Shown here: positions 17,801 through 32,003 of the stretch, piece after piece
Numbering within the stretch: position 1 is the first letter of the stretch
Layout of the letters: each line of letters starts with the position of its first letter
The notes under the pieces: model-generated
Told to the model about the DNA's origin: nothing
Database searches by the model: none
What the model saw: the letters and a program-made list of their open reading frames with translations, nothing else
Program-made: the position numbers and the translations under genes
Assembly (NCBI GenBank): GCA_947455465.1
Contig: CANGNS010000009.1
Location: 1-64,000, forward strand
Reading direction: 5' to 3'
Length of the DNA stretch: 64,000 nt
Origin: Comamonadaceae bacterium
Lineage (GTDB): Bacteria > Pseudomonadota > Gammaproteobacteria > Burkholderiales > Burkholderiaceae_C

Positions 17801-19711
17801 GAGAACAAATGGCTTGGTAAGGCCCCACGAAGCGCAAAGCCGCTCTTTCTGCGAAGCGGCCTCCCTTATCGGCGCAAATTGCTGATCGCAGGCTGCCCCA
17901 ATACAAACAACCCTTTGCTCGTCGAATTCAAGATTATTTATCACCTCCAGCCGAGACGATTCAGATATCGTCAAGGCGAAATTGACCATTTCCAAAGTCT
18001 TAACGCGTGAATGATAAAAATCAGCGTAAATCGGATTGGGAAGCAAATATTGCTCTGGATTGAGGAATGGGATCAGGTCGTAGACCAAGCCACATATCAA
18101 AATGTTGGATTCAACACGGGTCATGCCTGTGACGGCGTCGTCATTAAATCCCTCAAACAAGCTAGTGTGTAGCACCATATCTGGCTGCAAACTAGCGAAA
18201 AAGGCTTCTCTAATTTTCTCGGCTACGCGCGCTCGCATCTTGTTTTCAGGCGCACATGCACTTACCGGTCCAGGCGCTGTCCAGACCACAATATTTTGTG
18301 GTGGCAGATCGGTAGAAAAGAAGTCACGTATCGGACCAATACTTTGATCCAACATGCCATTGAGCACCAAGATAACTTCGTGATTGCCTCGGTGTTTAAT
18401 GATTGCCTGTGCGATTGCCAGAGAATACCGCCCTATCCCTCTGAACCGGCTGCCAGTCTGCGCGCCCTGCATATCTATCACGATGCGCATCTTGCGCGTG
18501 GCACGCGGTAATGTTGGCGACTGAATTGGCGCCCCTTTTTCAACGTGCCCTTTTTTATATTTACCAACAGATGCCAATTCCGATTTTTCCGGCATCTTGA
18601 CCCTATTGAAATAGGGCAGTTTGTTCAACAATGTCCAAGTTTTCTTCGCCGCAGCATATAGACGCGCTTTCCATCCGTGCTTTAGCAACAGATGACGTTG
18701 AAAACCAATCCACCGAAGAGGTGCAGTGATTTTCCATGACCGGCTTTGGTAAATCGCCTCCACAGTTTGCTTTGCTTCAATCGCTGTAACTTTTGCAATT
18801 TGCGATTGTTCTATGGCCAACTCAACCCGCTGAAAAAATTGCCCCATGGCCACATTAGTCTGTTCTCGCCATTCTTCAAGGGATTCCAAGCGCATTGCAA
18901 TCGCCTCATGCTTGGCCATCATTAGCTTGTGCTGTTTTATGAGTGATGATTGAATGGAGTCGCGCTCATTCTGCGATGATTGATCAAAACGATTAAGTAA
19001 AGTATCTAGGGACAATCCGAATTCTTTGTCCCAAACACCGCCCGAGGCGATCGGTAGTACGTCATCTCTTCGTGCGAGCACCGCATAATCTGGGCTGGCC
19101 CCATTTACAACGTCCGTTAATGTGGGCGCCGATTTTTCTTGAACATCAGCAGATTCCTGCAATCTAATTAGCTTGACACGACCAAAACCTGCGGTCTTCG
19201 CCATAAAGGTCAACAATTCAGACGGTATCGGTTTCTGATGCGTTGGATCGAGATAAAAATTGCGCGTTGCAACTATTAAATTCTCGGGATTGGGTGTCTC
19301 CATAATCAACAAGCCAGCGGGTCTCAACACGCGCATTGCTTCCTCGATTAGTCTTTGCATCTGCTCAAATTGCAGATGCTCTACCAAGTGGAATGCCGAC
19401 ACAATGGTCTGGCTTTTATCGGCAAGTGTCGCCAGATAGTCCAGCGCATCACCGTGGTGGACCTTGAAGCCCCGATCTCGACATGATTGCAGCATTCCTT
19501 CGTTCAAGTCAACGCCATGGGCTGCAAACCCACTAGATTGCATTTTTTCAATCCACTCCCCGCGTCCGCAACCCAGGTCAACCACCTCTGTATTTGGAAA
19601 AGCTTCAATTAATGGCTGAAGAAAATCATCATAGGCCCGCAGGCGATCCATGATTAGCTCACGCGTCCCACGGAAGCTAGCTTCAAATTCTGTGTAAAAC
19701 CTATCTGTCAT
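14831..19711 (-). CDS. Giant methyltransferase and three-glycosyltransferase polypeptide for O-polysaccharide assembly
   Basis: 1626 residues. About 1-215: class I SAM methyltransferase (VVDLGCGRGEW at 43-53; HLVEH; METPNPENL), similar in layout to the N-terminal methyltransferase of WbdD-type chain terminators. About 220-400: helical linker with coiled-coil character. About 410-800: GT4 domain (FRGIGRYSL; HEGFGLPPLEAM near 720). About 850-1230: second GT4 domain (RAEGFGLPLAEAM near 1137). About 1240-1600: third GT-B domain (YQETGESASGAVRFG near 1520). It overlaps Wzt by ATGA. No kinase domain is seen, unlike WbdD of E. coli O9a. Inference: it polymerises the chain and caps the end by methylation. 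Confidence 0.85.
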   Translation of the reverse strand: MTDRFYTEFEASFRGTRELIMDRLRAYDDFLQPLIEAFPNTEVVDLGCGRGEWIEKMQSSGFAAHGVDLNEGMLQSCRDRGFKVHHGDALDYLATLADKSQTIVSAFHLVEHLQFEQMQRLIEEAMRVLRPAGLLIMETPNPENLIVATRNFYLDPTHQKPIPSELLTFMAKTAGFGRVKLIRLQESADVQEKSAPTLTDVVNGASPDYAVLARRDDVLPIASGGVWDKEFGLSLDTLLNRFDQSSQNERDSIQSSLIKQHKLMMAKHEAIAMRLESLEEWREQTNVAMGQFFQRVELAIEQSQIAKVTAIEAKQTVEAIYQSRSWKITAPLRWIGFQRHLLLKHGWKARLYAAAKKTWTLLNKLPYFNRVKMPEKSELASVGKYKKGHVEKGAPIQSPTLPRATRKMRIVIDMQGAQTGSRFRGIGRYSLAIAQAIIKHRGNHEVILVLNGMLDQSIGPIRDFFSTDLPPQNIVVWTAPGPVSACAPENKMRARVAEKIREAFFASLQPDMVLHTSLFEGFNDDAVTGMTRVESNILICGLVYDLIPFLNPEQYLLPNPIYADFYHSRVKTLEMVNFALTISESSRLEVINNLEFDEQRVVCIGAACDQQFAPIREAASQKERLCASWGLTKPFVLYTGGADHRKNLGRLIEAFAALAKSTRDQYQLALAGKLSTGEVEYLQSTIAMHGLSSDEVKILGFLSDEELVLAYNLCHLFIFPSWHEGFGLPPLEAMACGAPVITANTSSLPEVVHLQAAMFDPFSVASIMAKLNQALTDEDFRQTLIHNGAVQATRFSWDATAQAAINAMERFGAKNTDFNIRPWRESTQAYEDRLAIEISEILSKSQQKNVTAPAEITRCLGINSLVSGALARTDLLPAKLPWRLEGPFDSSYSLALVNREFARALAELGHDVALHCAEGGGDFQADPAFLLANPDIQALHLRTSFMPADQAQVLSRFMYPPRVHDMHGKLNLLHCYGWEESRFPPAWVQEFNAHLSGITVMSQHVAKVLIDSGVRAPIAVSGIGVDHWERVQASNVVPMEAKTFRFLHVSSCFPRKGVQELLRAYGLAFRAQDDVTLVIKTFPNPHNEIHQWLSEIRATDASFPDVLIIEEDFSDSQLKSLYLQCQVLVAPSRAEGFGLPLAEAMLSGLAVIATAWSGQLDFCNSETAWLVNFDFVYAQSHFELSDSVWARPDVNHLSQTLVQVHQAPESLRKQRANAGRTLLLEKFTWRQAAQRTEHALRRWALEGAEKEPRIAWVSSWNTRCGIASYSDHLLAHMPSDVRILASHADLLVAEDDVRVIRCWRQGDEDTLENLTTAIESEQSDTVVIQFNYGFFDLKTLAAFMHQQIDAGRTVVIEMHSTSDPTHVPHKKLADMLPALERCHRILVHSVADMNRLKTLGLVNNVTLFPHGILDRQPRQEKSFSGRPLRVASYGYFLPHKGLNELIDAVVSLRNDGASVELFMVNAQYPAPISAQAIAHARNKITQLEAQDYITLQSDYLDDARSLDHLSQADLIVFPYQETGESASGAVRFGIASGVPVAVTPLSIFDDVSDAVHRLPGTSAESIAKGIASLMQGIRTADGAITAKADQCAIWRADHRYSTLSIRFANMLVALHSQNLSQQYLSN

Positions 19712-20931
19712 GATTCAATAGTTATTGCAATAGGCAACCAATTGGTACCAACGAAGTTGGATTTATCGACATTTACTACGTTGAAAACGACGGCTAAGTC
19801 GCGCCATTCGTAATTTTTGCTTAAGTGATTTTCAGCAGAATGGAGCGCAACTGCAACGGAATATGAACCTGGACCAAGGTTGGCTGCGAATTCGATGGCG
19901 AAGGAATAAGTTGCACCGGCCGCAGCGAGACGTATTACTTGGCCTAAGTAATGGGTATTGGTGCCAAAAATCGGCTGTCCCAGCTTATCCTTAATCAAGA
20001 ATCCCAGGACCAGTTCGGGAATATTCTGGTGAACTTTTGCGCGAACCGTGAGGGTCAATTTTTCCGCAACAGACACCACGGTTATTTGTTCGCCGCTAGC
20101 ATTGCGCAGGCTAACATCTTCTATTTTCGCCTCGCCCGATCCGGATATGGTTTGCACTTTACCGTCTGGCCGCTCGCGTCGATGAACCTCACTGCTTTGA
20201 CGCTGGGCTAACATCGCGTTGTAATAATCCATTACCGCTTCTGGGGGGCCCTGCATTGCCACTCGGCCTTCGTTGAGTAGGATGGCACGGTCGCAAATAC
20301 TTTGAATAGCAACCTTGTCATGGCTGACCATCAATAAAGTTGTCCCTTGCTGGCGAAAGGCACGAATCCGGTCAAAGCTCTTATGCTGAAAGTAGGCATC
20401 GCCGACCGATAGCGCTTCATCAACAATAAGAATGTCAGGACGAATCGCTGTTGCGACGCTAAATGCCAAGCGCATTTGCATGCCACTGCTGTACACGCGC
20501 ACTGGTTGATCTATATAGTCACCAATTTCGGCAAATGATTCGATATCTGGCATGCACTCAGTCAATTGGGCGGTGCTTATACCCAAAAGCTGCCCAGCCA
20601 TCATTGCGTTTTGTCTGCCAGTGAAATCTGGATGAAAGCCAATACCCAGTTCCAGTAATGCGGCAACCCGTCCGGTCATGTGCACGCTACCGCGCGTTGC
20701 CTGTGCAGTTCCCGTAATCAGCTTGAGTAAGGTGCTCTTACCTGCGCCATTAATTCCAATAATGCCAACTGATTCGCCCGGTTGTACTGTAAAACTAATG
20801 TCTTGCAACACCCATTTCAAGCGATGACGAACCGCCCAGCCAAACGTGACCCATTCAGTTAACCGTCCCCAGCGTCCTTGGTACTGTTTATAAGCCTTGC
20901 CTAGCGATTGGACTTCAATTCTGCCCATCAA
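19708..20931 (-). CDS. wzt: Polysaccharide ABC exporter ATPase with C-terminal sugar-binding domain (Wzt)
   Basis: 407 residues. Walker A GINGAGKST (59-67), signature YSSGMQMRL, Walker B ILIVDE and the switch His in MVSHD cover the first about 240 residues. The C-terminal about 150 residues form the beta-sandwich Wzt_C domain, which in O9a-type systems recognises the terminal modification of the finished chain. That fits a methyl cap made by the neighbouring giant protein. ATGA overlaps on both sides (Wzm upstream, transferase downstream) indicate one operon. Confidence 0.92.
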   Translation of the reverse strand: MMGRIEVQSLGKAYKQYQGRWGRLTEWVTFGWAVRHRLKWVLQDISFTVQPGESVGIIGINGAGKSTLLKLITGTAQATRGSVHMTGRVAALLELGIGFHPDFTGRQNAMMAGQLLGISTAQLTECMPDIESFAEIGDYIDQPVRVYSSGMQMRLAFSVATAIRPDILIVDEALSVGDAYFQHKSFDRIRAFRQQGTTLLMVSHDKVAIQSICDRAILLNEGRVAMQGPPEAVMDYYNAMLAQRQSSEVHRRERPDGKVQTISGSGEAKIEDVSLRNASGEQITVVSVAEKLTLTVRAKVHQNIPELVLGFLIKDKLGQPIFGTNTHYLGQVIRLAAAGATYSFAIEFAANLGPGSYSVAVALHSAENHLSKNYEWRDLAVVFNVVNVDKSNFVGTNWLPIAITIES

Positions 20932-21722
20932 AGCTCATCCACCATTTCGCCGCTATGGGTGCGAAACATGCGCCAACCCATTAAGCAAAGTAAGCCGCCT
21001 GTTACAAGCGGAACACATAGCGCAGTCCAGTCCGCGATGGGCTGACCTGCAAAGATGTTTTGATAGCCATGGATAACTGGAAACATCGGATTCCATAACA
21101 TCCAACTACGCACTGCCGGTGGGAGAATTTCCACAGGGTAAACAATTGGCGTGAGCCAAAACCAAAATTGCAAAAATATGGCGACAAATTGCCCTACGTC
21201 GCGAAAGAATACATTTAGCACACCCAAGACCATCGCCAACCCTATAGCGAGCATCAATTCAATCACCAACAAAGGGACCATATTGAGCAAAGTCCAACCC
21301 GGCCAGCTCCCAGAAAAAATCAAAAATAATAAGAAAAGACTGAAAATTATTAGAAAATTTATACAAGCATTCAAGACCAAAATAACAGGCAAAATTAGAC
21401 GTGGGAAACTGATTTTTTTCAGCAAATTGGCATTTTCAATGAATATGTTTTGGCCTCGGGATACGATCTCGATAAACAAGCCCCAGGTCAATGAACCTGC
21501 ACACAAATAAATACTGTACGCAAATGGTGTGTCGACACCAGGAAGCCGCGCTTTCATTAATTGAGAAAATATTATTGTGTAAACAATTATCATTGCCAAA
21601 GGATTAACTATAGTCCATGTGGCTCCCAGCACAGATTTTCGATATTTCGACTCGAATTCGCGCCTCACGCTTCCAATAATGAAGCCTCGATAATTCCAAA
21701 GTGAACGCAAGGTAGCTCCCAT
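20928..21722 (-). CDS. wzm: Polysaccharide ABC exporter permease (Wzm)
   Basis: 264 residues with six predicted membrane segments (GATWTIVNPLAMIIVYTII opens the first). ABC-2 type permease for O-polysaccharide or capsule transport across the inner membrane, working with Wzt. First gene of the minus-strand operon; the promoter should lie in 21723-21900, shared with the divergent glycosyltransferase gene. The stretch is visibly more AT-rich than the flanking housekeeping DNA, which suggests transfer. Confidence 0.92.
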   Translation of the reverse strand: MGATLRSLWNYRGFIIGSVRREFESKYRKSVLGATWTIVNPLAMIIVYTIIFSQLMKARLPGVDTPFAYSIYLCAGSLTWGLFIEIVSRGQNIFIENANLLKKISFPRLILPVILVLNACINFLIIFSLFLLFLIFSGSWPGWTLLNMVPLLVIELMLAIGLAMVLGVLNVFFRDVGQFVAIFLQFWFWLTPIVYPVEILPPAVRSWMLWNPMFPVIHGYQNIFAGQPIADWTALCVPLVTGGLLCLMGWRMFRTHSGEMVDEL

Positions 21723-21873
21723 GCGGCACTCAGCTCAGTTTGGACCGATGATTACGAAAAGTCATAGTGCGCATCATAAAGCGCCCGCCCTAGAACGGAA
21801 CAGGCATTTGCGCCGATTCCCGGAAATGGGGGGATGCTGCGGCGTGCCAGGACGGCGCCAGACGGCTTGCTCA

Positions 21874-21920
21874 CCCCACATTTGCTGGATTGAAGCAAAA
21901 TGGGGGGGAAACTCCCCCCA
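21874..21920 (+). promoter_or_regulatory. Two mutually exclusive hairpins before a glycosyltransferase start
   Basis: Hairpin A pairs ACCCC (21873-21877 area) and TTTGCT (21881-21886) with AGCAAA (21894-21899) and TGGGG (21901-21905). Hairpin B pairs TGGGGGG (21901-21907) with CCCCCCA (21914-21920), loop GAAACT. Both use the same G-run, so only one can form. Hairpin B ends 3 bases before the ATG at 21924, which has no Shine-Dalgarno. This has the form of a translational or attenuation switch; no ligand is suggested. Confidence 0.4.
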
Positions 21921-21923
21921 ACC

Positions 21924-23075
21924 ATGCGCGTTCTTCACATTTATCGGACTTATTTTCCCGAAACCCAAGGCGGGGCTCAGGAATCCATTCGTCAGCTCTG
22001 TCTGGCCACACAGACCTTGGGAGTGGACAACACCATATTTGCGCTCGCCCATCAACCCGAGCCCCCAGCCTTAGGCCTACCCGAGGGGCGGTTGGTACGT
22101 GCAAAATCTTGGATGGAGATCGCTTCTTGCGACATCGGCGCCTGGTCGGCGATTCAACGCTGCAGGGCGGCAGCAGCCCAGAGCGACATCATCCAGATCC
22201 ATTACCCCTGGCCATTCGCTGACCTGATGCTGCCTTGGATCCGAAGTCACAAACAACCGGTGCTGGTAACCTACATTTCTGACATCGTGAGGCAGAACGA
22301 TTTTGGTCTCGGACAGCTCTATGCGCCACTGCGTCGGCAACTGTTAGGCGCGGCGAAACATATCGTCGCGTCGTCGCCCAACTATGAGAAAAGTAGCGAA
22401 GTTTTACAGCAGTACAGTCATAAATTAAGCTGTATTCCGCACTGTATGGGGCCAGCGCCGCAAGTCTCAGACGCCTCCGTTGCACATTGGCGCGCGCGCT
22501 TTGGCACCGAATTTTTCCTTTTCGTAGGCGTACTCCGGTATTACAAGGGGCTTGATTTTTTGCTTGAAGCAGCTCCTCACGTGCGTGCTCCCATCGTCAT
22601 TGTGGGGGAGGGCCCCGAGGGCGATCGCCTGCGGCAAATAGCCCAACGCAATGGGCTGACCAATGTGCACTTCGTGGGCGCCTTAAATGATGAGCATAAG
22701 AATGCCCTGATTCAGATTTGCCGCGCCGTGGTTTTTCCTTCTCATTTGCGTTCGGAGGCATTTGGTATGACTTTGCTAGAGGGCGCGCGCGTCGGGCGTC
22801 CCTTAATAAGTTGTGAAATCGGCACCGGCACAACCTGGATCAATATCGACGGCGAGACTGGGCTGGTAGTTCCACCAGCTGATGGCACCGCCTTGGCATA
22901 TGCCATGGAAAAGCTCCGTCAGGACAGCGCGCTGTGTGCCCGCTTGGGCGAAGGCGCTCAACGGCGGTGGGAGCAACTGTTCACACCCCAAGTAGTGGGT
23001 CAGTCCTATTTCGATTTGTACTCTGACCTGCACGGCGGGCGCACTTCGCCCGCGCAGGGCGCTAAATTGGGCTGA
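21924..23075 (+). CDS. GT4-family glycosyltransferase
   Basis: 383 residues from ATG 21924 (the N terminus RVLHIYRTYFPETQGGAQE is the usual GT4 opening; an ATG 24 bases upstream would read through the G/C hairpin). GT-B fold with FLFVGVLRYYKGLDFLLEA, VGEGPEGD and the EX7E motif RSEAFGMTLLEGA near 278. Retaining glycosyltransferase of the polysaccharide locus, transcribed away from Wzm. The 5-base gap to the CHASE2 cyclase gene suggests co-transcription. Confidence 0.88.
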   Translation: MRVLHIYRTYFPETQGGAQESIRQLCLATQTLGVDNTIFALAHQPEPPALGLPEGRLVRAKSWMEIASCDIGAWSAIQRCRAAAAQSDIIQIHYPWPFADLMLPWIRSHKQPVLVTYISDIVRQNDFGLGQLYAPLRRQLLGAAKHIVASSPNYEKSSEVLQQYSHKLSCIPHCMGPAPQVSDASVAHWRARFGTEFFLFVGVLRYYKGLDFLLEAAPHVRAPIVIVGEGPEGDRLRQIAQRNGLTNVHFVGALNDEHKNALIQICRAVVFPSHLRSEAFGMTLLEGARVGRPLISCEIGTGTTWINIDGETGLVVPPADGTALAYAMEKLRQDSALCARLGEGAQRRWEQLFTPQVVGQSYFDLYSDLHGGRTSPAQGAKLG

Positions 23076-23080
23076 ACAGG

Positions 23081-24895
23081 ATGTTCGCCCCGCTCCTGAC
23101 ACGCTGGTCGGTACGATGGGCGGTTTGCTTTATTGCGGTCGGCTTGGCCGCTTGGATTCAATGGCAAAGCCCCCACCAATTCGCCAGATTTGATGCAGCA
23201 CTACGGGATGGCTATTTGCGTATTCAGGCCGATTCCCGCAAGGACGATCGACTGGTAGTGATCGATATTAACGAGGATAGCCTGCAACAATTGGGCCAAT
23301 GGCCATGGCCGCGAGCCCGTCTGGCCGACCTGGTGGAGATCGCACTTACGGACGGTGCCGCCCGGGCTGTGGCACTTGATATGGTTTTGCCCGAATCGGC
23401 GGACAACCTCGGAGATAGACGTTTGGCCGCACTGGCCGAACACGCACCTCTGACCCTGGCCCAAGTCATGGACTTCAGCCCACGCGAGATTCCAAACCGA
23501 CTGGGTGTACTGGCATCCGGCCACGCACCGGAAAAATCACCGACGGCAGTTGCAGCCATGGGGTACATCGCCAATCATGCCGGCTTGGCACATGCGCGGT
23601 GTGTGGGCAATATCGGTTATGTGCCGGATAGCGACGGTGTTTTGCGCCACACACCTGCCCTGACACAATTTGAGAAAACCTATTATTTGCCTCTGGCGGG
23701 CGCTTTAATGCGCTGTGCAAATCCCCAATGGCCGCAGCCCCAGGCCAATGCAGCAGGCCTCTGGCGGATTCCATTTGGTCATGCAATCGAGTCTTATACC
23801 GTCCTATCAGCAGCCGATGTTTTGGCTGGCAAAGTGGATTTATCGCTATTTCAGAATCGCTTTGTTCTTATCGGATCTTCCGCCTTAGGGCTCAGCGACC
23901 GGGTAGCCACGCCGCTACAAGCTTTGGCGCCCGGCTTATTTGTTCACGCCGAGGCCATTTCTGGTCTGCTCGATATTGCGCAGGGCAAGGCGCGCGCCCC
24001 TTGGGACGCCTCAGGCTGGATGTTGGGTTGGACGGCATTAAGCGCCCTCAGTGCAGTCCTGGCAATTGCATCCCTGGCTGCGTGGCAAGGGACCTTGCTG
24101 CTCCTTGGCCTAACACTGGCCTGGCTTGCCATCGCGGGCGTTGGCGTAGCGATGCAGGCCGAGTTCTCGGTAAGCGCGCCTTTAGCCGCATATTTCGTGG
24201 TCTTTTTTACCGCCATCCCTTATGAATGGTGGCAGTCCCAGGGCCGGGCACGTCGCCTAGTGACAACTTTTTCCCACTATGTCGCCAAACCAGTGCTCGA
24301 TGAAATATTGCGCTTAGGCTTAAAACATAGTCTTACACCCACCTTGCGGGAAGTTACCGTATTGATCGCCGATATGCAAGGCTATACCCAAGCAACATCG
24401 GACCTTTCCCTAGACGAGGCAGCGCGCCTAACCAAGGAGTTTTTGGGCTGTCTGACCACCCCTGTTTTGACCCACGGCGGAACGCTGGACAAATACACAG
24501 GCGATGGGCTCGTCGCCTTCTGGGGCGCACCGGTGCCTGCGCAAGATCACGCGGACCGCGCGGTGCAAGCGGCGATGGATATTGTGGCCACGGTCGACCT
24601 TTGGAATGAGGGGCGCATGGCTGAGGGAAAAAGCGCCTTACGGGTTCGCATTGGCGTAGAAAGCGGGCCTGCATTGGTAGGCGATCTGGGTACTCCTTTT
24701 CGAAGCACCTACACCGCGGTGGGCGATTGCATCAACTTTGCATCCCGGCTTGAGGCCGCTGCGCGTGACCTTTCCACTAATTTAGTAATTGGCCCACACA
24801 CCCAAGCGATGCTGCGCCGCCACCGCACGCGTTCGCTAGGACTTATTCATTTGCGCGGTGTGTCTGATCCTTTAGAGGTATTTGGGCTGCAGTAA
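23081..24895 (+). CDS. CHASE2-domain class III adenylate cyclase
   Basis: 604 residues. One membrane segment near 12-27, extracytoplasmic CHASE2 sensor about 35-300, three closely spaced membrane segments about 310-380, cyclase domain about 415-590. Metal Asp431 and Asp475, transition-state Asn552 and Arg556 are present. The base-selecting pair is Lys471/Thr545, the pair found in cyanobacterial-type adenylate cyclases, so cAMP is the predicted product. All catalytic positions are on one chain, giving an active homodimer. It is the likely cAMP source for the CRP-like regulator at 5250-5930. Whatever CHASE2 senses is unknown. Confidence 0.88.
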   Translation: MFAPLLTRWSVRWAVCFIAVGLAAWIQWQSPHQFARFDAALRDGYLRIQADSRKDDRLVVIDINEDSLQQLGQWPWPRARLADLVEIALTDGAARAVALDMVLPESADNLGDRRLAALAEHAPLTLAQVMDFSPREIPNRLGVLASGHAPEKSPTAVAAMGYIANHAGLAHARCVGNIGYVPDSDGVLRHTPALTQFEKTYYLPLAGALMRCANPQWPQPQANAAGLWRIPFGHAIESYTVLSAADVLAGKVDLSLFQNRFVLIGSSALGLSDRVATPLQALAPGLFVHAEAISGLLDIAQGKARAPWDASGWMLGWTALSALSAVLAIASLAAWQGTLLLLGLTLAWLAIAGVGVAMQAEFSVSAPLAAYFVVFFTAIPYEWWQSQGRARRLVTTFSHYVAKPVLDEILRLGLKHSLTPTLREVTVLIADMQGYTQATSDLSLDEAARLTKEFLGCLTTPVLTHGGTLDKYTGDGLVAFWGAPVPAQDHADRAVQAAMDIVATVDLWNEGRMAEGKSALRVRIGVESGPALVGDLGTPFRSTYTAVGDCINFASRLEAAARDLSTNLVIGPHTQAMLRRHRTRSLGLIHLRGVSDPLEVFGLQ

Positions 24896-24974
24896 TTGCA
24901 GGCGCGACCCTGAACGCCAGCCTGGCCAGCCCCTACCGCCTAATTTAGCGATTTCAGACCCTACGAACCTCAGG

Positions 24975-25023
24975 TTGCAAATATTCATATATGATGTGTT
25001 ATAGTCCCTCATATATGAATATT
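24975..25023 (+). promoter_or_regulatory. Perfect 15-bp inverted repeat over the start of the TnpB-like gene
   Basis: AATATTCATATATGA (24980-24994) and TCATATATGAATATT (25009-25023) are exact reverse complements around a 14-base spacer. The right arm contains the ATG at 25015. A TATAGT box (25000-25005) lies in the spacer and TTGCAA at 24975-24980 could be a -35 (19 bases apart), giving a nearly leaderless mRNA; TATGAT (24990-24995) is a second candidate. The element could be an operator for autoregulation, an RNA hairpin hiding the start, or a relic of a transposon subterminal hairpin. Confidence 0.6.
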
Positions 25024-25653
25024 CTTCTACGCGTCCCGCTCAACACCTCGCCCGAGCAATCCGAGCGGCTCAAAGCTTTACAGGCCGTGTTTGCCCAGGC
25101 CTGCAACGCCTTGGCGCCCGTCGTGCAGCAAACCAAGGTCTGGAACCGGGTCGCCTTACACCACCTGATGTACCGCCCTTTGCGCGAGCGCTTCCCGGAA
25201 TTGGGGTCGCAAATGGTGTGCAACGCCATTTATTCGGTTTCCAGAACCAGCCGCTTGGTATTTCAAAGTCCGCAAAGCCCGTTTAACCTGTCCAAACTGG
25301 CGGGCAAACCCCTGCCCCTGCTGCGCTTTACCGACCAATGCCCGGTGTACTTTGACCGGCACACCCTGAGCGTCAAGGACGGGCAGCTGTCCATGTACAC
25401 GCTGGACGGGCGTATGCGCTTTGCACTGGCGCTCTCGCCCCAAGACGAGGCCAATTTCCGGGTGTACAAGCTCCTGGAAATCGTGCTCACGGGCAATGAG
25501 GCCAGCAATTACAGCCTGGCTTTTCAATTTAGCGACGCGTCTGCGGCCCCCGCAGCACTGGACGACGCGCCAACACAAACCGATACCGAAGCGGCGACTC
25601 CCCAGACGGGGGCCGCCCTACCCGATTACGTTTTGGTCGAGGAGACCCCATGA
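25015..25653 (+). CDS. TnpB-derived protein lacking the RuvC nuclease half, leading a type I secretion operon
   Basis: 212 residues from ATG 25015 (an ATG at 24991 in frame lies inside the inverted repeat and adds 8 unlikely residues). About 1-170 follow the N-terminal half of IS200/IS605 TnpB: a start strand (LLRVPLNTSPEQ), a helical block with LHHLMYRPLRERFPELGSQM (48-67), and a barrel segment with FDRHTLSVKDGQLSMYTLDGR (113-133) and NYSLAFQF (165-172). The RuvC motifs and zinc ribbon that should follow are absent; instead there is an Ala/Thr/Asp/Pro-rich tail. Stop and next ATG overlap (ATGA). Likely a domesticated nucleic-acid-binding protein; function unknown. Confidence 0.7.
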   Translation: MNILLRVPLNTSPEQSERLKALQAVFAQACNALAPVVQQTKVWNRVALHHLMYRPLRERFPELGSQMVCNAIYSVSRTSRLVFQSPQSPFNLSKLAGKPLPLLRFTDQCPVYFDRHTLSVKDGQLSMYTLDGRMRFALALSPQDEANFRVYKLLEIVLTGNEASNYSLAFQFSDASAAPAALDDAPTQTDTEAATPQTGAALPDYVLVEETP

Positions 25654-27386
25654 ACCCCAATAAACCCCCATCCGAATTGCGCACTGCCATCGGCGCGCTC
25701 ACGCCCTATTTCCGCCAAGCCGCCTGGTTCAGTGTGGTGACCAATATATTGGTGCTCGCCCCGTCGGGCTACATGCTGGAGGTGTACGACCGGGTGCTCA
25801 ACAGCAGCGACATCATGACTTTGGCCATGCTGACGCTCTTGGTTCTGGGCGCCTACGCGCTTATGGAGGTGCTCGAATGGGTGCGCTCGGAGGTCATGCA
25901 CGAGGCGGCCATGGAATTTGACAAGCATCTGAGCCGCCGTGTCTTTGACGCCATCTTTGAGGCCAACCTCAAACGCCTGCCCTTTGGCAGCGCACAGGCC
26001 ATGGTTGACTTCCGGTCTGTGCGTGACTTTCTGGGCACACCGGTGCTTATGGCCATGATGGACGCCCCGATGTCACTGCTGTTTTTGGTGCTCATTTTTG
26101 CGATCAGCCCCGTGCTGGGCTGGTCCTCGGTCATGGCCGCTGTGGCCCAAACCTTTATCGGCTGGCTCAACGAGCGCAGCACCCAACCGCCCTTGATGGC
26201 TGCTAACCGCAGCGCAGTTGGCGCTCAGCAATACGCCGACAACACCTTGCGCAATGCCCAGGTGATTGAGGCCATGGGCATGTTGCGGGACATTCACAAA
26301 CGCTGGTTTAAAAAGCAGGAAGAATTCCTGAACCTGCAGGCCATCGCCTCGGACCACGGGGGCTTTTACCAAGCGCTGTCCAAGTTTTTACAAAACACCA
26401 TCAGTTCGGGGCTCTTGGGCCTGGGCGCTTGGCTCTTGCTGCACAACATGCTAAATGGCGGCGCCTCCTACATGATCGTGGGCTCATTATTGGGCGGCCG
26501 CGTGCTGGCACCTTTGGGCCAATTGGTGGCGCAATGGCAGGTGGTGGTCAATGTCCGCGTGGCCTACGCCCGGCTTGACGCAGTTTTGAATGCGGTGCCC
26601 GCCAAAGCCGAATCTATGCAACTGCCGCCGCCCAGCGGCCAGTTACTGGTCGAGCAAGTCATGGCCGGCGCCCCCGGCACGCAAGTGGCGATTCTGCGCG
26701 GTGTGGCCTTTGCCCTGAACCCCGGCGAAGTACTGGCGGTGGTGGGGCCATCGGCCTCGGGCAAGACGACGCTGGCGCGCCTGCTGGTAGGTCTGTGGCC
26801 AGCGGCCAGCGGCAAAGTGCGTCTGGACGGCGCAGACATCCACAGTTGGGACAAAAACCACCTGGGCCCCTTCGTAGGCTACCTGCCCCAAGGTGTGGAA
26901 TTATTTGACGGAACCATTGCCGAGAACATCGCGCGCTTTGGACATGTCGATAACGCACAAGTCGAAGCGGCGGCGCGCGCCGTCGGCCTGCACGACTTGA
27001 TCATGGCCTTGCCGCAAGGCTATGACAGCCAGGTCGGACGTGACGGTGCCGTGCTCTCGGGCGGCCAGCGTCAGCGCGTGGGCCTGGCACGCGCCCTCTA
27101 CGGGCGCCCCTCGTTTGTGGTGCTCGATGAGCCCAATTCCAGCCTGGACGAGCAAGGCGACGCCGCATTGGCCGCAAGCATCGCCAACCTCAAAGCCAGT
27201 GGCACCACCTTTGTCATCATGACGCACCGTACCAGTGTTTTGGGCGTTGCCGACAAGATGCTGGTGCTGCGCGACGGGCAGCAACAAATGTTTGGCCCAC
27301 GTGACGAGGTGCTTAAAGCCCTCAATGAAGCCGCCGCCAAAGCCCGCGCTCCCGCCGCCGGCGCCGTGGCGCCCGCTACCGCCTGA
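25650..27386 (+). CDS. Type I secretion ABC exporter, PrtD-like (first copy)
   Basis: 578 residues. Membrane domain about 20-310 with the PrtD-type start APSGYMLEVYDRVLNSS, then a nucleotide-binding domain with VGPSASGKTT (Walker A), LSGGQRQRVGLARAL (signature) and VVLDEPNSSLDE (Walker B with catalytic Glu). No C39 peptidase-like N-terminal domain, so of the PrtD/AprD class that exports RTX proteins without leader cleavage. Translationally coupled to the TnpB-like gene by ATGA. A near-equal paralogue follows, so the pair may form a heterodimer. Ala/Pro-rich C-terminal tail. Confidence 0.92.
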   Translation: MNPNKPPSELRTAIGALTPYFRQAAWFSVVTNILVLAPSGYMLEVYDRVLNSSDIMTLAMLTLLVLGAYALMEVLEWVRSEVMHEAAMEFDKHLSRRVFDAIFEANLKRLPFGSAQAMVDFRSVRDFLGTPVLMAMMDAPMSLLFLVLIFAISPVLGWSSVMAAVAQTFIGWLNERSTQPPLMAANRSAVGAQQYADNTLRNAQVIEAMGMLRDIHKRWFKKQEEFLNLQAIASDHGGFYQALSKFLQNTISSGLLGLGAWLLLHNMLNGGASYMIVGSLLGGRVLAPLGQLVAQWQVVVNVRVAYARLDAVLNAVPAKAESMQLPPPSGQLLVEQVMAGAPGTQVAILRGVAFALNPGEVLAVVGPSASGKTTLARLLVGLWPAASGKVRLDGADIHSWDKNHLGPFVGYLPQGVELFDGTIAENIARFGHVDNAQVEAAARAVGLHDLIMALPQGYDSQVGRDGAVLSGGQRQRVGLARALYGRPSFVVLDEPNSSLDEQGDAALAASIANLKASGTTFVIMTHRTSVLGVADKMLVLRDGQQQMFGPRDEVLKALNEAAAKARAPAAGAVAPATA

Positions 27387-27403
27387 TCCCTGAAAGCCCT
27401 CGT

Positions 27404-29137
27404 ATGAACCAAGCCATCTCCTCCCCTGCCCGCAGTGCATTGCGCACCACTTTGTGGAGCTTTCGCGGGGCGTTTTTGCGCGTCGGCGGCTACAGTTTGG
27501 TAGCCAATTTGCTGATGCTCACACCGACGCTGTACATGCTGCAGGTCTACGACCGCGTGCTTAAAAGCCAAAGCGAGCTGACGCTTTTGGCAATGTCCAT
27601 GCTGACCTTGGCCCAGTTTGCCGTCATGGCCGCCGCCGAGTGGATGCGCTCACGCCTGCTGGTGCGCGCTGGCGTTGCGCTGGACGGACGGCTGAGCACC
27701 CAGGTGTTCAACGCCAGTTTTGACGCCTACCTTAGCCAAACCGGCAACTCGCCCTCGCGCGCATTTGGCGACCTGATCCAGGTGCGCCAGTTCCTCACCG
27801 GCAACGGCATCTTTGCCTTCTTTGATGCGCCTTGGACGCCGATCTATATGGCGGTGCTGTTCTTACTGCACCCGATGCTGGGCTGGCTGGGCATTGTTTT
27901 TGCCCTGGTGCAACTGGCTTTGGCCAAATTTGGCCACCAAGGCACGCTGGCACCGAGCGAAGCGGCCACGGCGGCCACCTCCGATGCCAGCATCTTTTTG
28001 CAAAGCAAACTGCGCAACGCCGAAGTGATCGAGTCCATGGGCATGCTGCGCAATTTGCAGCGCCGCTGGCTGCAGCGCCATGGTGTTGCGCTGCAGCGCA
28101 GCGGCGAGGCCCAGCACGTGACGCACCGCATCACCGCCATCAGCAAATTTGTGCGCTACAGCCAACAATCACTGGTGCTGGGAGCGGGCGCTTTGCTGGT
28201 CATTCGCGGCGAGCTTTCGCCCGGCGGCATGATCGCCGCCAATGTGCTGATGACCCGCGCACTGGCCCCCATCGACCTGATGGTCAGCAGCTGGCGCCAG
28301 TTTGCGGGCATGCGGGCTGCCTTTGGGCGCTTGGAAAAACTGCTGGCCGACTACCCCGAACGCGATCAGCGCCTGCAGCGCGTCGCACCCAGTGGCGCAC
28401 TGCATGTGCACAACGTGGTCGCAACTGCGCCGGGACGCAAAGAGGCCATTCTCAAAGACGTCAGCGTCAGCGCGCTGCCGGGCAGCGTGACCGTCATCCT
28501 GGGGCCCTCGGGTTCGGGCAAGTCAACGCTGGCGCGTGTCATGGTGGGCATCTGGCCCGACGTGAGCGGCAAGGTTTTGCTCGATGAACTGCCTATTGCA
28601 TCGTGGAAGCGCGAGGAATTAGGCCCCCATATCGGCTACCTCCCCCAAGATGTGGAGCTGTTTGAGGGCACGATTGCCGAAAACATCGCCCGCTTTGGCA
28701 GCACTGACAGCGCCCCCATCATCGAAGCGGCCAAAGCAGCCGGTCTGCACGAGATGATTTTGCGCTTTCCCAAAGGCTACGACACCTCGACCGGCGAGGC
28801 GGGCAATCTGCTCTCGGGCGGGCAACGCCAGCGCATCGGCCTGGCCCGGGCGATCTATGGCAACCCCAAGCTGGTGGTCTTGGACGAGCCCAACGCCAAT
28901 CTGGACGACGCCGGCGAGGCGGCGCTGCAGCAAACCGTGGTGCGCCTCAAAGCCCAGGGCAAAACCGTGGTGCTGATCACCCACCGCCCGGGCGCCGTCG
29001 CTGTGGCCGACCATTTGCTCATCCTCAACAACGGCCAGGTGCAAGCCCGCGGCCCACGCGATGCCGTGATTGCCGCCCTGCAAGCGGCGCAAAAGAATGC
29101 GGCCGCTGCTGCGCCTGGCGCAGCCCTGCCCGCCTGA
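27404..29137 (+). CDS. Type I secretion ABC exporter, PrtD-like (second copy)
   Basis: 577 residues, same layout as the preceding gene: TPTLYMLQVYDRVLKSQSEL, Walker A GPSGSGKST, signature LSGGQRQRIGLARAI, Walker B VVLDEPNANLDD. Both copies keep full ATPase motifs, so neither is an obviously dead subunit. Tandem duplication followed by divergence is the simplest origin. Only 17 bases separate the two genes. Confidence 0.92.
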   Translation: MNQAISSPARSALRTTLWSFRGAFLRVGGYSLVANLLMLTPTLYMLQVYDRVLKSQSELTLLAMSMLTLAQFAVMAAAEWMRSRLLVRAGVALDGRLSTQVFNASFDAYLSQTGNSPSRAFGDLIQVRQFLTGNGIFAFFDAPWTPIYMAVLFLLHPMLGWLGIVFALVQLALAKFGHQGTLAPSEAATAATSDASIFLQSKLRNAEVIESMGMLRNLQRRWLQRHGVALQRSGEAQHVTHRITAISKFVRYSQQSLVLGAGALLVIRGELSPGGMIAANVLMTRALAPIDLMVSSWRQFAGMRAAFGRLEKLLADYPERDQRLQRVAPSGALHVHNVVATAPGRKEAILKDVSVSALPGSVTVILGPSGSGKSTLARVMVGIWPDVSGKVLLDELPIASWKREELGPHIGYLPQDVELFEGTIAENIARFGSTDSAPIIEAAKAAGLHEMILRFPKGYDTSTGEAGNLLSGGQRQRIGLARAIYGNPKLVVLDEPNANLDDAGEAALQQTVVRLKAQGKTVVLITHRPGAVAVADHLLILNNGQVQARGPRDAVIAALQAAQKNAAAAAPGAALPA

Positions 29138-29195
29138 CGATTTTTTTTGATTTCTACCCAGATCCTTATTCACCCCTAACTTTGTCGGACCTGCC

Positions 29196-30578
29196 ATGAC
29201 TACACCCCCCGTCAACCAACGCATTGCCTCCAAACTGGCCTCGGCGCACGGCGCACCCAGCGACGCAACCCTCATCTCCTCGGCCGAAGCGCTGCAAGCG
29301 GGCCACGCGGGGCGTGCCGGCCGCATCGGCGCCTGGACCCTGGGCATCGGCCTGGTGGCCTTGCTGGTCTGGACCGCCATGGCGCCACTCGACGAAGGCG
29401 TGCCCGGCCCCGGCATGGTGGCCATCGACACCAAGCGCAAAGTCATTCAGCACCTGAGCGGCGGCTTGGTCAAGGAAGTGCTGGTGCGCGAGGGGCAGCA
29501 AGTCAAGGAAGGCGAGCTGCTTTTGCGCTTGGACGAGGCCGCCGCACGTGTCAACTTTGAAGCTGCACGCCAACGCTACATCGGCTTGCGCGCCATGCAA
29601 GACCGCTTGCAGGCCGAACAGCGTGGCCAGGCCACCATCAGCTTTCACCCCGATGTGGTGCAAGCGGCGCGCGATCCGCAGATTCAGTTGGTCGTGGCCA
29701 CCCAGCAGCAGCTCTTTGGTTCACGCCGGGCCAGTCTGGGCGCCGACCTGCAAAGCATGCAGGAAAACATCGCCGGTCAAGAAGGCATGATCTTGGCCTA
29801 TGAAAACATGAGCGCCAATCGCAAAAACCAACTGGCACTGCTGACCGAGGAACTCAACAACACCAAAGGCCTGGTCGCTGAGGGCTATGCCCCGCGCAAC
29901 CGCCAGCTTGAGTTGGAGCGCCAGGTTTCTGAAATGGGCTCGGCCTTGGCAGAACTGCAAGGCAATATGACCCGCGCCAAGCGGGCCATCGCCGAGGTGC
30001 GTCAACGCATGCTGGCACGCCAACAAGAGTTCAATAAAGAGGTGGAGTCCAACCTAGCCGACGTCGGCCGCGAAGTCGAAGCCGACCAGGAAAAATACCG
30101 CGCCACCCAGGACGATATGGGGCGCCTGGAGATCAAGGCCCCAGCGGCTGGCCAGGTGGTGGGCCTGACGGTGCAATCCATAGGCGCGGTCATCGGGGCG
30201 GGTCAGAAGCTGATGGACATTGTTCCCAAGGAGCAAGCGCTCTTGATTGAGGCCAAGGTGGCGCCGCATTTGATCGACAAAGTGCATGCAGGCATTGCGG
30301 TGGACGTGCGCTTTTCCTCGTTTTCCAACACACCGCAGTTGGTCGTCAAGGGATCGGTGCAATCGGTCTCGGGCGACCTGATCGTGGAGCAAAACGGTAT
30401 GGCCTATTACTTGGCGCGCATCAGCATTACCGAAGCGGGCTTTAAGGAATTGGGCGATCGTCAATTGCAGTCGGGCATGCCGGTGGAGGTGATTTTCATC
30501 ACCGGCAAACGCTCTATGCTGACCTACCTGCTGCACCCCCTGGTCAAGCGCTTGGCCGCGTCCATGAAGGAGGAGTAA
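29196..30578 (+). CDS. Type I secretion membrane fusion protein, HlyD/PrtE family
   Basis: 460 residues. Cytoplasmic N terminus, single membrane segment about 47-65 (IGLVALLVWTAMAPLDEG), first beta-barrel/lipoyl half with VIQHLSGGLVKEVLVREGQ, long alpha-helical hairpin about 115-310, second lipoyl half (EIKAPAAGQVVGL) and beta-barrel ending in VEVIFITGKRS, typical for PrtE-class adaptors. It bridges the ABC exporter to the TolC-like protein encoded next (2-base gap). Confidence 0.93.
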   Translation: MTTPPVNQRIASKLASAHGAPSDATLISSAEALQAGHAGRAGRIGAWTLGIGLVALLVWTAMAPLDEGVPGPGMVAIDTKRKVIQHLSGGLVKEVLVREGQQVKEGELLLRLDEAAARVNFEAARQRYIGLRAMQDRLQAEQRGQATISFHPDVVQAARDPQIQLVVATQQQLFGSRRASLGADLQSMQENIAGQEGMILAYENMSANRKNQLALLTEELNNTKGLVAEGYAPRNRQLELERQVSEMGSALAELQGNMTRAKRAIAEVRQRMLARQQEFNKEVESNLADVGREVEADQEKYRATQDDMGRLEIKAPAAGQVVGLTVQSIGAVIGAGQKLMDIVPKEQALLIEAKVAPHLIDKVHAGIAVDVRFSSFSNTPQLVVKGSVQSVSGDLIVEQNGMAYYLARISITEAGFKELGDRQLQSGMPVEVIFITGKRSMLTYLLHPLVKRLAASMKEE

Positions 30579-30580
30579 GC

Positions 30581-31948
30581 ATGAAAAAAGCATCGTTGCC
30601 CATGCGCCAGCGCGCCATCGCACTGCGCCAACCTGCCCTGGCCTTGGCGCTGCTGGCCATCTGCGGCCTGGCCCCGGCCATGGACTTGCTCCAAGCCTAC
30701 GACGCAGCCCGCCAAAATGATCCCAATATCCTGGCCGCGCGCGCAGCCGCCGACATCGGCCGCGAGCGCCTGCCGCAGGCTATTGCGCAGCAGCTGCCCA
30801 ACGTGTCCTTCAGCGCGCAATACGGCAAAAACCAGTTGGCCAGCACCTCGCCCAATTTTTTGGGTGTGGACCAGACCATCAACACCGAGTACCCCAGCAC
30901 CAGCCAAACCCTCACTATCCGCCAGCCGATTTACCGCGGCTACTTGTTTGCGCAGACGCGCCAGGCCCAGGCCCAGTTTGAAGACGCTGAGGCCACATTG
31001 GCCCAAGAGGAGCAAAACCTGCTGGCCCGCGTCACGGGCAGTTACCTGGAGGCGCTGCTGTCGCAAGAGCAACTCGAACTGGTGCTGGCCCAGCGCGCCG
31101 CCAACACCACGCAGCTGGACATCGCCCGCAAAGCCTTTGCCGCTGGCGCGGGCACGCGCACCGACATCGACGAGGCCCAAGCCCGCTTGGACAGCACGCT
31201 GGCCCTGGAAATCGAGGCGCGCCAAAACATGGCCTACACCTTGCGCCAGCTAGAGCAATTGACAGGCAGCCCCGCAGGCGTGCTGGCGCGCTTGAATTTG
31301 GCCAATTTCACGCTGACCGACCCGCAGCCCGCCGACCTGGACAGCTGGATTGCCCGCGCCGAGCGCAGCAGCCCCCAACTGCGCAGCCTGCAAGCCCAGC
31401 TAGAAACCGCGCGCCAAGAGGTCGAAAAGGCCAGTTCCGGCCATGAACCGACGCTGGACGCCACGGTGCAATGGACCAGCAGCGCCAGCGAAAACGTCTA
31501 CAACATCCGCAATAGCTACACCAACGCCAGCGTGGGCGTGCAACTGACCATCCCCATTTACGGCGGCGGTTACACCAGCTCCCAGGTACGCCAAGCCCTC
31601 GCGCAGCAAGAGCGCGCATCCCAAGCCCTGGAGGCCGGGCGGCGTGATTTGGGCATGCGGGTTTTCCGGGAATTGCGCGGCGTGACCGAAAACATCCCCA
31701 AAGTGCGGGCATTGGAAAAAGCGTTGAGCTCAGCGGAGCAGTTGATTGTGTCCAACCGCAAGTCTTTCCAAGCCGGCACGCGCACCGTGATCGACATCCT
31801 CAACGCCGAGCAGCAGCGCTTTTTGGTGTTGCGTGACCTGGCCCAAGCGCGCTATGTCTACCTGAGCGCACGGGTCCGCTTGCTGTCCTTGGTCGGCGAG
31901 GCTGATTTAGGCGCATTGACCACCATCAACCAGATGTTTGGCCCCTAA
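30581..31948 (+). CDS. TolC-family outer-membrane channel of the type I system
   Basis: 455 residues. Signal peptide to about residue 34 (LLAICGLAPAMD), then MDLLQAYDAARQNDPNILAA, the usual TolC start. Two internal repeats of long helices and beta strands, with QLTIPIYGGGYTSSQVRQA in the second half. Forms the outer-membrane duct. It ends the operon and is followed by a strong terminator 17 bases later. Confidence 0.92.
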   Translation: MKKASLPMRQRAIALRQPALALALLAICGLAPAMDLLQAYDAARQNDPNILAARAAADIGRERLPQAIAQQLPNVSFSAQYGKNQLASTSPNFLGVDQTINTEYPSTSQTLTIRQPIYRGYLFAQTRQAQAQFEDAEATLAQEEQNLLARVTGSYLEALLSQEQLELVLAQRAANTTQLDIARKAFAAGAGTRTDIDEAQARLDSTLALEIEARQNMAYTLRQLEQLTGSPAGVLARLNLANFTLTDPQPADLDSWIARAERSSPQLRSLQAQLETARQEVEKASSGHEPTLDATVQWTSSASENVYNIRNSYTNASVGVQLTIPIYGGGYTSSQVRQALAQQERASQALEAGRRDLGMRVFRELRGVTENIPKVRALEKALSSAEQLIVSNRKSFQAGTRTVIDILNAEQQRFLVLRDLAQARYVYLSARVRLLSLVGEADLGALTTINQMFGP

Positions 31949-31965
31949 GGCGGGTTGCGCAAGAA

Positions 31966-31999
31966 AAAAGCCCTGGAACTTTGCAGTTCCAGGGCTTTT
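31966..31999. terminator. Strong bidirectional terminator after the type I secretion operon
   Basis: Perfect 15-bp stem AAAAGCCCTGGAACT / AGTTCCAGGGCTTTT with loop TTGC. A-run on one side and T-run on the other let it work for the operon on the plus strand and for the tRNA-Arg transcript on the minus strand. Confidence 0.9.
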
Positions 32000-32003
32000 C
32001 AAT

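Follow-up and report, generated by a model that had tools for sequence, protein, structure and literature searches.

A RuvC-less TnpB-derived protein at the head of a type I secretion operon is a candidate guide-independent autoregulator with an 11-bp promoter site

The window analyzed here comprises 64,000 nucleotides (positions 1 to 64,000 of contig CANGNS010000009.1, Comamonadaceae assembly GCA_947455465.1) and carries a short TnpB-derived gene as the first gene of a type I secretion operon. This gene (25015..25653, + strand) encodes a protein of 212 amino acids that lacks RuvC and is termed P0001 below. Its stop codon overlaps by ATGA (25650) with the start of a PrtD-type ABC exporter gene (TIGR01842, 25650..27386, +), whose likely ribosome site, judged from its sequence, is a GAGGAG at 25639..25644 (+) within the 3' end of the TnpB-derived gene. 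A second PrtD-type ABC exporter gene (TIGR01842, 27404..29137, +) follows, together with genes for a HlyD-type membrane fusion protein (TIGR01843, 29196..30578, +) and a TolC-type outer membrane protein (TIGR01844, 30581..31948, +). At the promoter, a perfect 15-nt inverted repeat with arms at 24980-24994 and 25009-25023 covers the start codon and brackets a -10-like hexamer, TATAGT (25000..25005, +), which is preceded by TGT and lies 9 nt 5' of the ATG. This proximity suggests that the operon mRNA is likely leaderless. Within the arms lie two copies of an 11-bp site, site 1 (TTCATATATGA, 24984..24994, +) and site 2 (TTCATATATGA on the minus strand, 25009..25019, -), the latter covering the start codon. 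The first-pass annotation of this DNA had the gene, its ATGA overlap and its operon membership right but missed these promoter sites, which are the strongest clue, since they begin with the insertion target of intact TnpB relatives.

Searches with P0001 alone against Pfam, NCBIfam and the sequences of the PDB returned nothing significant, and an alignment of 21 family members found no TnpB in the family libraries or by PDB sequence search. The homology to TnpB was therefore established through intermediate TnpBs. A genome search showed P0001 to be 48% identical to a TnpB of genome G048 over residues 7-136 (E 1.7e-30), and further TnpB matches were found in G094 (43%) and G019 (40%, E 4.6e-19). 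Five of the six matching open reading frames that were profile-scanned contained PF07282 and/or PF01385, the sixth being a short frame of G388; the G048 protein (locus L023), the best match to P0001, stood outside these six and was judged an intact TnpB by reading. An AlphaFold2 model built from the 21 members reached a pLDDT of 87.4 and a pTM of 0.83. All structure matches to this model at ranks 1-29 were Cas12f, TnpB, Cas12k, TranC, Fanzor or Cas12n chains (best E 1.6e-5; ISDra2 TnpB 8exa, E 2.3e-4) with query TM scores of 0.39-0.60, which amounts to a moderate fit, and the next match was unrelated (E 0.23). Homology to intact TnpBs and the predicted WED-REC fold of TnpB and Cas12f confirmed the first-pass proposal that P0001 is the WED/REC half of a TnpB.

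The missing parts were equally consistent. Neither RuvC nor the zinc ribbon (PF01385, PF07282) was matched in P0001 or in any of the 21 members, and the ABC gene begins at once behind the TnpB-derived gene. The same arrangement was found in 21 of 22 loci of the family, which leaves no room for an intact RuvC downstream. The genome of the window (97% complete) contained no PF07282 match, a single match to P0001 and a single Y1 transposase match, located on another contig. In the search for the relatives' type of right end, GTTGTTTAC, to which the search was confined, none was found at 19001-32000 of the window, and the gene stands, as had been noted from the letters, without tnpA or recognizable transposon ends beside it.

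Domain limits in P0001 were set by analogy with those reported for ISDra2 TnpB (PMC10097598). According to the model and the alignment, a REC-like helical insert spans about residues 9-100 (25039..25314, +), and its helices 2-3 carry an LGSQ..CN motif that is common to TTCAT-type TnpBs. WED-like strands are formed by residues 101-176 plus 1-8 (25315..25542, +, for the former). Identity to six CN-type TnpBs was 49% for residues 41-83, 40% for residues 101-134 and 33% for residues 1-40. In residues 135-176 it fell to 14%, compared with 46% among the CN-type TnpBs themselves, and the mean net charge of this segment was -1.6 in the family versus +1.8 in the CN-type TnpBs, all of these identity and charge values depending on the alignment. 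The net charge of the core ranged from +3 to +13 in the RuvC-less family versus +12 to +16 in TnpB N-terminal halves. By position, residues 135-176 would correspond to a part that helps to hold the guide scaffold in ISDra2. The C-terminal region had been described as an Ala/Thr/Asp/Pro-rich tail; it is indeed a variable linker, modeled as disordered (residues 178-198, 25546..25608, +), but this is followed by a PDYVLVEE segment (residues 203-210, 25621..25644, +), in which a strand at residues 206-209 was modeled with confidence. Most of the 21 aligned members have a similar segment (P203 invariant, Y205 in at least 90%), and the G693 protein lacks it.

The family comprises 22 members: the window, 12 usable of 13 loci from a contig scan, eight genomes of the order and G693. 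Among 399 genomes of the order, 17 including the window's own matched P0001 at E 1e-3, and these comprised nine RuvC-less members (own genome included), six full-length or partial TnpBs and two short, doubtful matches (G388 and G150, 33% and 29% identity), which lie beside unrelated metabolic genes and were not counted. A search of 369 genomes of the class added one member outside the order (G693), two weak extra matches remaining uncounted. A search of 398 genomes of the phylum added no member, and its only new strong match was a full-length TnpB (G770). Within the window's order, the members thus counted span five or more family codes, and one further member comes from a genome of a different order. 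For alignment and tree, 21 members were used and G693 was left out. The alignment contained 44 invariant columns, every member being at least 48% identical to P0001. In a tree with 14 TnpBs, the RuvC-less members formed one clade with support of 100/100; its sister group consisted of four TnpBs including a G094 copy (88/81), and the G019 and G149 elements fell outside (92/29), the latter two supports being modest and the ISDra2 branch very long. By tblastn, 20 of the 21 loci other than the window show the exporter ABC gene directly downstream, as the window does; in the last one, L008, the contig ends there, with the beginning of the ABC gene still legible. The two tandem ABC genes of the window contrast with a single one in G307 and G693. 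Because 22 RuvC-less members, 21 of them placed in one fully supported clade, have kept the exporter linkage, P0001 is not the product of a recent truncation; judged from these sequences, the family is old and selected.

Several weaker matches were recorded and left out of the family. Two stretches (L028 1501-1722, L030 1501-1689) show weak likeness to the first 76 residues and lie beside unrelated metabolic genes, and L067 matches profile positions 41-72; all three may be chance matches or further reduced relatives. A 53-residue frame in G708 was not counted, nor was a 560-residue frame in which profile positions 102-149 are weakly matched (E 6.8e-5; G458:C112:4134-4277, L066). A 35-residue fragment at a contig edge (L014) is 91% identical to the window protein on a contig labeled Chthonomonas and probably misbinned; it was kept out of alignments and counts. 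At E 1e-5, P0001 had one match among plasmids and two among phages, a transposase, a copy of the G019 element and a transposase of Thermus phage MN1, and none of these was a RuvC-less member.

The promoter sites recur throughout the family. Of the 22 loci, 21 carry an 11-mer with at most one mismatch to TTCATATAGGA at the operon promoter, and a scan of 21 loci located no copy outside it; L046, the one locus without such an 11-mer, has one weaker copy before tolC. The consensus is TTCATATAKGA, and the site is paired in 19 of 22 loci. Eleven pairs are inverted with start-to-start distances of 20-34 (27 in five of the 11), and the direct pairs are spaced at 26-27 (three), 16 (four) and 14 (one). 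The TA-N3-T hexamer nearest to the gene lies 6-10 nt before the ATG in the pairs examined for it. In L047 and L048, tolC lies upstream of the TnpB-derived gene on the same strand (about 0.6 kb apart in L047) and the site pair precedes tolC, so the site seems to track the operon promoter and not the start codon of the gene. An operator acting at the RNA level, on translation, is disfavored because both orientations are found among the sites and some of them precede tolC.

The first five bases of the site, TTCAT, are also the insertion target of four intact relatives. The left edge of the insertion sequence was TTCAT for six of seven copies in G019 (the seventh is cut at its 5' side), for all three copies in G094, for two of three in G149 (the third lies beside a run of N) and, by similarity, for the one copy in G770. 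In L035, the TTCAT coincides with the start of mrpD, ATGAA on the strand of that gene (NF009309 aligns from its first residue), which argues that TTCAT belongs to the target and not to the element. The chance that an 11-mer contains a given pentamer at any position, counting both strands, is about 1.4%. For ISDra2, insertion target and target-adjacent motif (TAM) are reported to be one and the same, TTGAT (PMC8612924), and, by analogy, TTCAT would be the TAM of the relatives. The ISDra2 TAM is described as being read by REC and WED residues (PMC10097598), so that the part kept in P0001 would be the TAM-reading part. In the intact TnpB of G048 (L023/L050), the start codon lies in CTTTATATGAA, which reads TTCATATAAAG on the other strand and is similar to the site at the start codon in the RuvC-less genes; self-control may already exist in intact TnpBs.

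Across genomes, the site was nearly confined to carriers of the RuvC-less gene and to this operon. In the window's own genome, the only TTCATATAKGA copies are the two arms at this operon, and in the nine other carrier genomes 15 of 16 site places lie at the operon, with palindromic sites of G270 and G693 counted twice; carrier G141 has no such copy. Exact inverted pairs (gap 5-25) were found in two of the 399 genomes and exact direct pairs (gap 4-6) in three, and all five are carriers (five of nine carriers, none of 390 others), whereas the reversed control gave no pair in any genome. The carriers missed by these strict patterns, namely the own genome, G240, G270 and G141, have variant or single sites. 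Apart from one extra copy in G693, the family therefore shows a conserved operator-like site at its own operon that is rare or absent elsewhere.

Taken with moderate confidence, the probable explanation is that the TAM-reading lobe of a TnpB became a protein-only DNA-binding autoregulator of the secretion operon, acting through the 11-bp site. It draws directly on the homology, fold, single clade, operon linkage, conserved site with its near confinement, and TTCAT match. The WED and REC lobe of a TTCAT-specific TnpB would have been retained, RuvC and the guide system lost, and the lobe turned into a sequence-specific double-strand DNA-binding protein. This protein would read an 11-bp site made of the old TAM TTCAT and ATAKGA, and most promoters of its operon hold two such sites. 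Each site is most likely bound by a monomer, which is proposed because spacing and orientation vary and because, in ISDra2, one TnpB is reported to bind one RNA (PMC10097598). Binding would most likely repress by blocking the -10 box and the start, resulting in negative autoregulation of the gene and the type I exporter. The C-terminal strand on its loose linker may seal the barrel at the former place of RuvC or bind a partner. The first-pass annotation was right in suggesting a plausible regulatory role and a domestication route unlike that of TldR.

Several observations weigh against this autoregulation by a TAM-reading lobe. The putative TAM rests on insertion edges and not on cleavage assays; the TnpB most like P0001 (L023) has no TTCAT at its left edge, only one within a hairpin loop, and in L058 another insertion sequence has disrupted the left end. 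The ISDra2 TAM-contact residues Y52, K76 and Q80 were not mappable onto P0001, as two MAFFT modes disagreed, and were dropped. The sixteenth site place of the carriers is a TTCATATATGA elsewhere in G693, one of the four TnpB genomes without the RuvC-less gene has an exact TTCATATAGGA (G094:C36:10768-10778), and the reversed motif had one match, in G019. Only a single site is present in L012, L044 and L046, the variable spacing and orientation are unusual for a classical dimeric repressor, and a promoter scan gave no full sigma-70 match at the window promoter. Three figures carry limits of their own. The 24 non-coding site copies hold 1.17-1.91 bits over the 11 positions and at most 0.18 bits in each of the next eight bases, with an A-rich stretch before the site, but the copies were chosen by likeness to the 11-mer (arm 1 of L007, L046 and arm 1 of G693 were added by eye), which inflates conservation within it and leaves the flanks unaffected. 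All 14 pairs examined contain a TA-N3-T hexamer between the two sites, versus 5.0 expected from letter shuffles; these are the inverted pairs and the direct pairs at 26-27, with the five close direct pairs outside. The chance of the coincidence between exact pairs and carriers is 6.8e-10 with eight carriers and about 1.5e-9 with the own genome as ninth, but both figures assume independent genomes, which carriers of shared descent (three share a genus code) are not.

Among the alternatives, the one that survives best holds that P0001 is an RNA-guided, TldR-like repressor without RuvC. The first 5 bp of the 11-mer would then be a TAM, and the other 6 nt a seed to which a small guide RNA, from some locus in the genome, is matched. 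For TldR, guides of only 6 nt are described as sufficient and the seed as 6 nt long (PMC13418256), five and six add up to exactly 11, and conservation is absent from the eight bases that follow the 11-mer; for the first two reasons this alternative is retained, as an unlikely candidate. Its guide was searched for as the scaffold end followed by the seed (TTTAC-ATAKGA), and none was found in the 22 loci (267 kb), remote guides or guides with an unknown scaffold lying outside the search. A single bare GTTGTTTAC in L007 has no seed after it. Of 24 seed copies without a preceding TTCAT, five overlap sites, and inspection by eye revealed no common sequence before the other 19. In both L007 and G693, the two sites of the same genome differ inside the would-be seed. 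RuvC, which together with WED is reported to hold the guide RNA in ISDra2 (PMC10097598), is missing, and residues 135-176 show neither TnpB likeness nor positive charge. Since the guide-scaffold side diverged and no guide was found nearby, the guide-free explanation is favored and P0001 probably works without guide RNA; a bound guide-like RNA, as the first-pass annotation had envisaged, is possible but less favored here.

It is more doubtful still that another transcription factor reads the sites and that P0001 acts otherwise in secretion, for example by binding RNA or a part of the exporter. Site binding by P0001 is itself a proposal, and the C-terminal strand motif conserved in most members may bind a partner, which would fit such a role. 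However, exact pairs are limited to carriers, the site begins with the target of the TnpB relatives, and a general factor should have sites elsewhere, of which the own genome has none. That the sites are transposon-end relics beside a decaying TnpB gene is very improbable and was rejected, for although the first site has the position expected of a left end and opens with the target sequence, the family has its invariant columns and single clade, the left ends of the relatives continue with AGAA and not ATAKGA, and site 2 and the sites before tolC would be left unexplained.

Some neighboring genes of the operon were also recorded. A CHASE2-adenylate/guanylate cyclase gene (23081-24895, +) lies directly upstream of the TnpB-derived gene and is also found upstream in L002; none of the 19 remaining orthologue loci gave a match, and several of them do not extend far enough upstream to be informative. 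An 821-residue protein with a DUF4214 domain (10289-12754, +) is, as a guess, a possible cargo of the type I exporter. A 1626-residue methyltransferase and glycosyltransferase fusion is encoded at 14831-19711 (-).

If autoregulation by the lobe holds, the TAM-reading half of a TnpB can persist alone as a DNA-binding protein, RNA-guided systems have a second way of becoming regulators, and the control of a secretion operon is explained. It would also make available a small protein with which TAM reading could be studied separately from R-loop formation. As the candidate operator and the likely TAM of the parents are both in hand, the idea is directly testable. With a little better than even confidence, P0001 would represent a new class of transcription factor, in which the TAM-recognition lobe of TnpB alone, guide-free, reads an 11-bp operator to autoregulate type I secretion. 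Neither a RuvC-less or guide-independent TnpB regulator nor a link between TnpB and type I secretion was among the literature matches listed, a body of work that largely excludes subscription journals.

TnpB is regarded as ancestral to Cas12. P0001 shares with TnpBs of the IS200/IS605 type such as ISDra2 the WED/REC fold and sequence likeness, including a Q..CN motif common to it and the six aligned CN-type TnpBs, among them those of three TTCAT elements. It differs in lacking RuvC, zinc ribbon, tnpA and transposon ends, in its diverged guide-scaffold side, in being a chromosomal operon member and in having no guide found at its loci. To our knowledge, the TldR domestications known so far keep their guide RNA. 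Like P0001, TldR is a TnpB that has been domesticated and linked to promoter DNA and to a gene from outside transposons; it is described as a full-length TnpB that has a guide RNA and whose RuvC has lost its activity through mutation (PMC13418256), whereas P0001 has 212 residues and no RuvC at all. TldR represses a promoter next to its TAM, and the P0001 operon has, at the level of sequence, a site with a TAM-like start. PrtD-type type I secretion operons share the ABC, HlyD and TolC genes, but the window has two tandem ABC genes with the TnpB-derived gene before them. Autoregulated repressors with paired operators form a general class, and the P0001 operon resembles these in its paired sites over the -10 box and start; here the fold would be a TnpB WED/REC lobe instead of a helix-turn-helix or ribbon-helix-helix, and the spacing and orientation of the sites vary.
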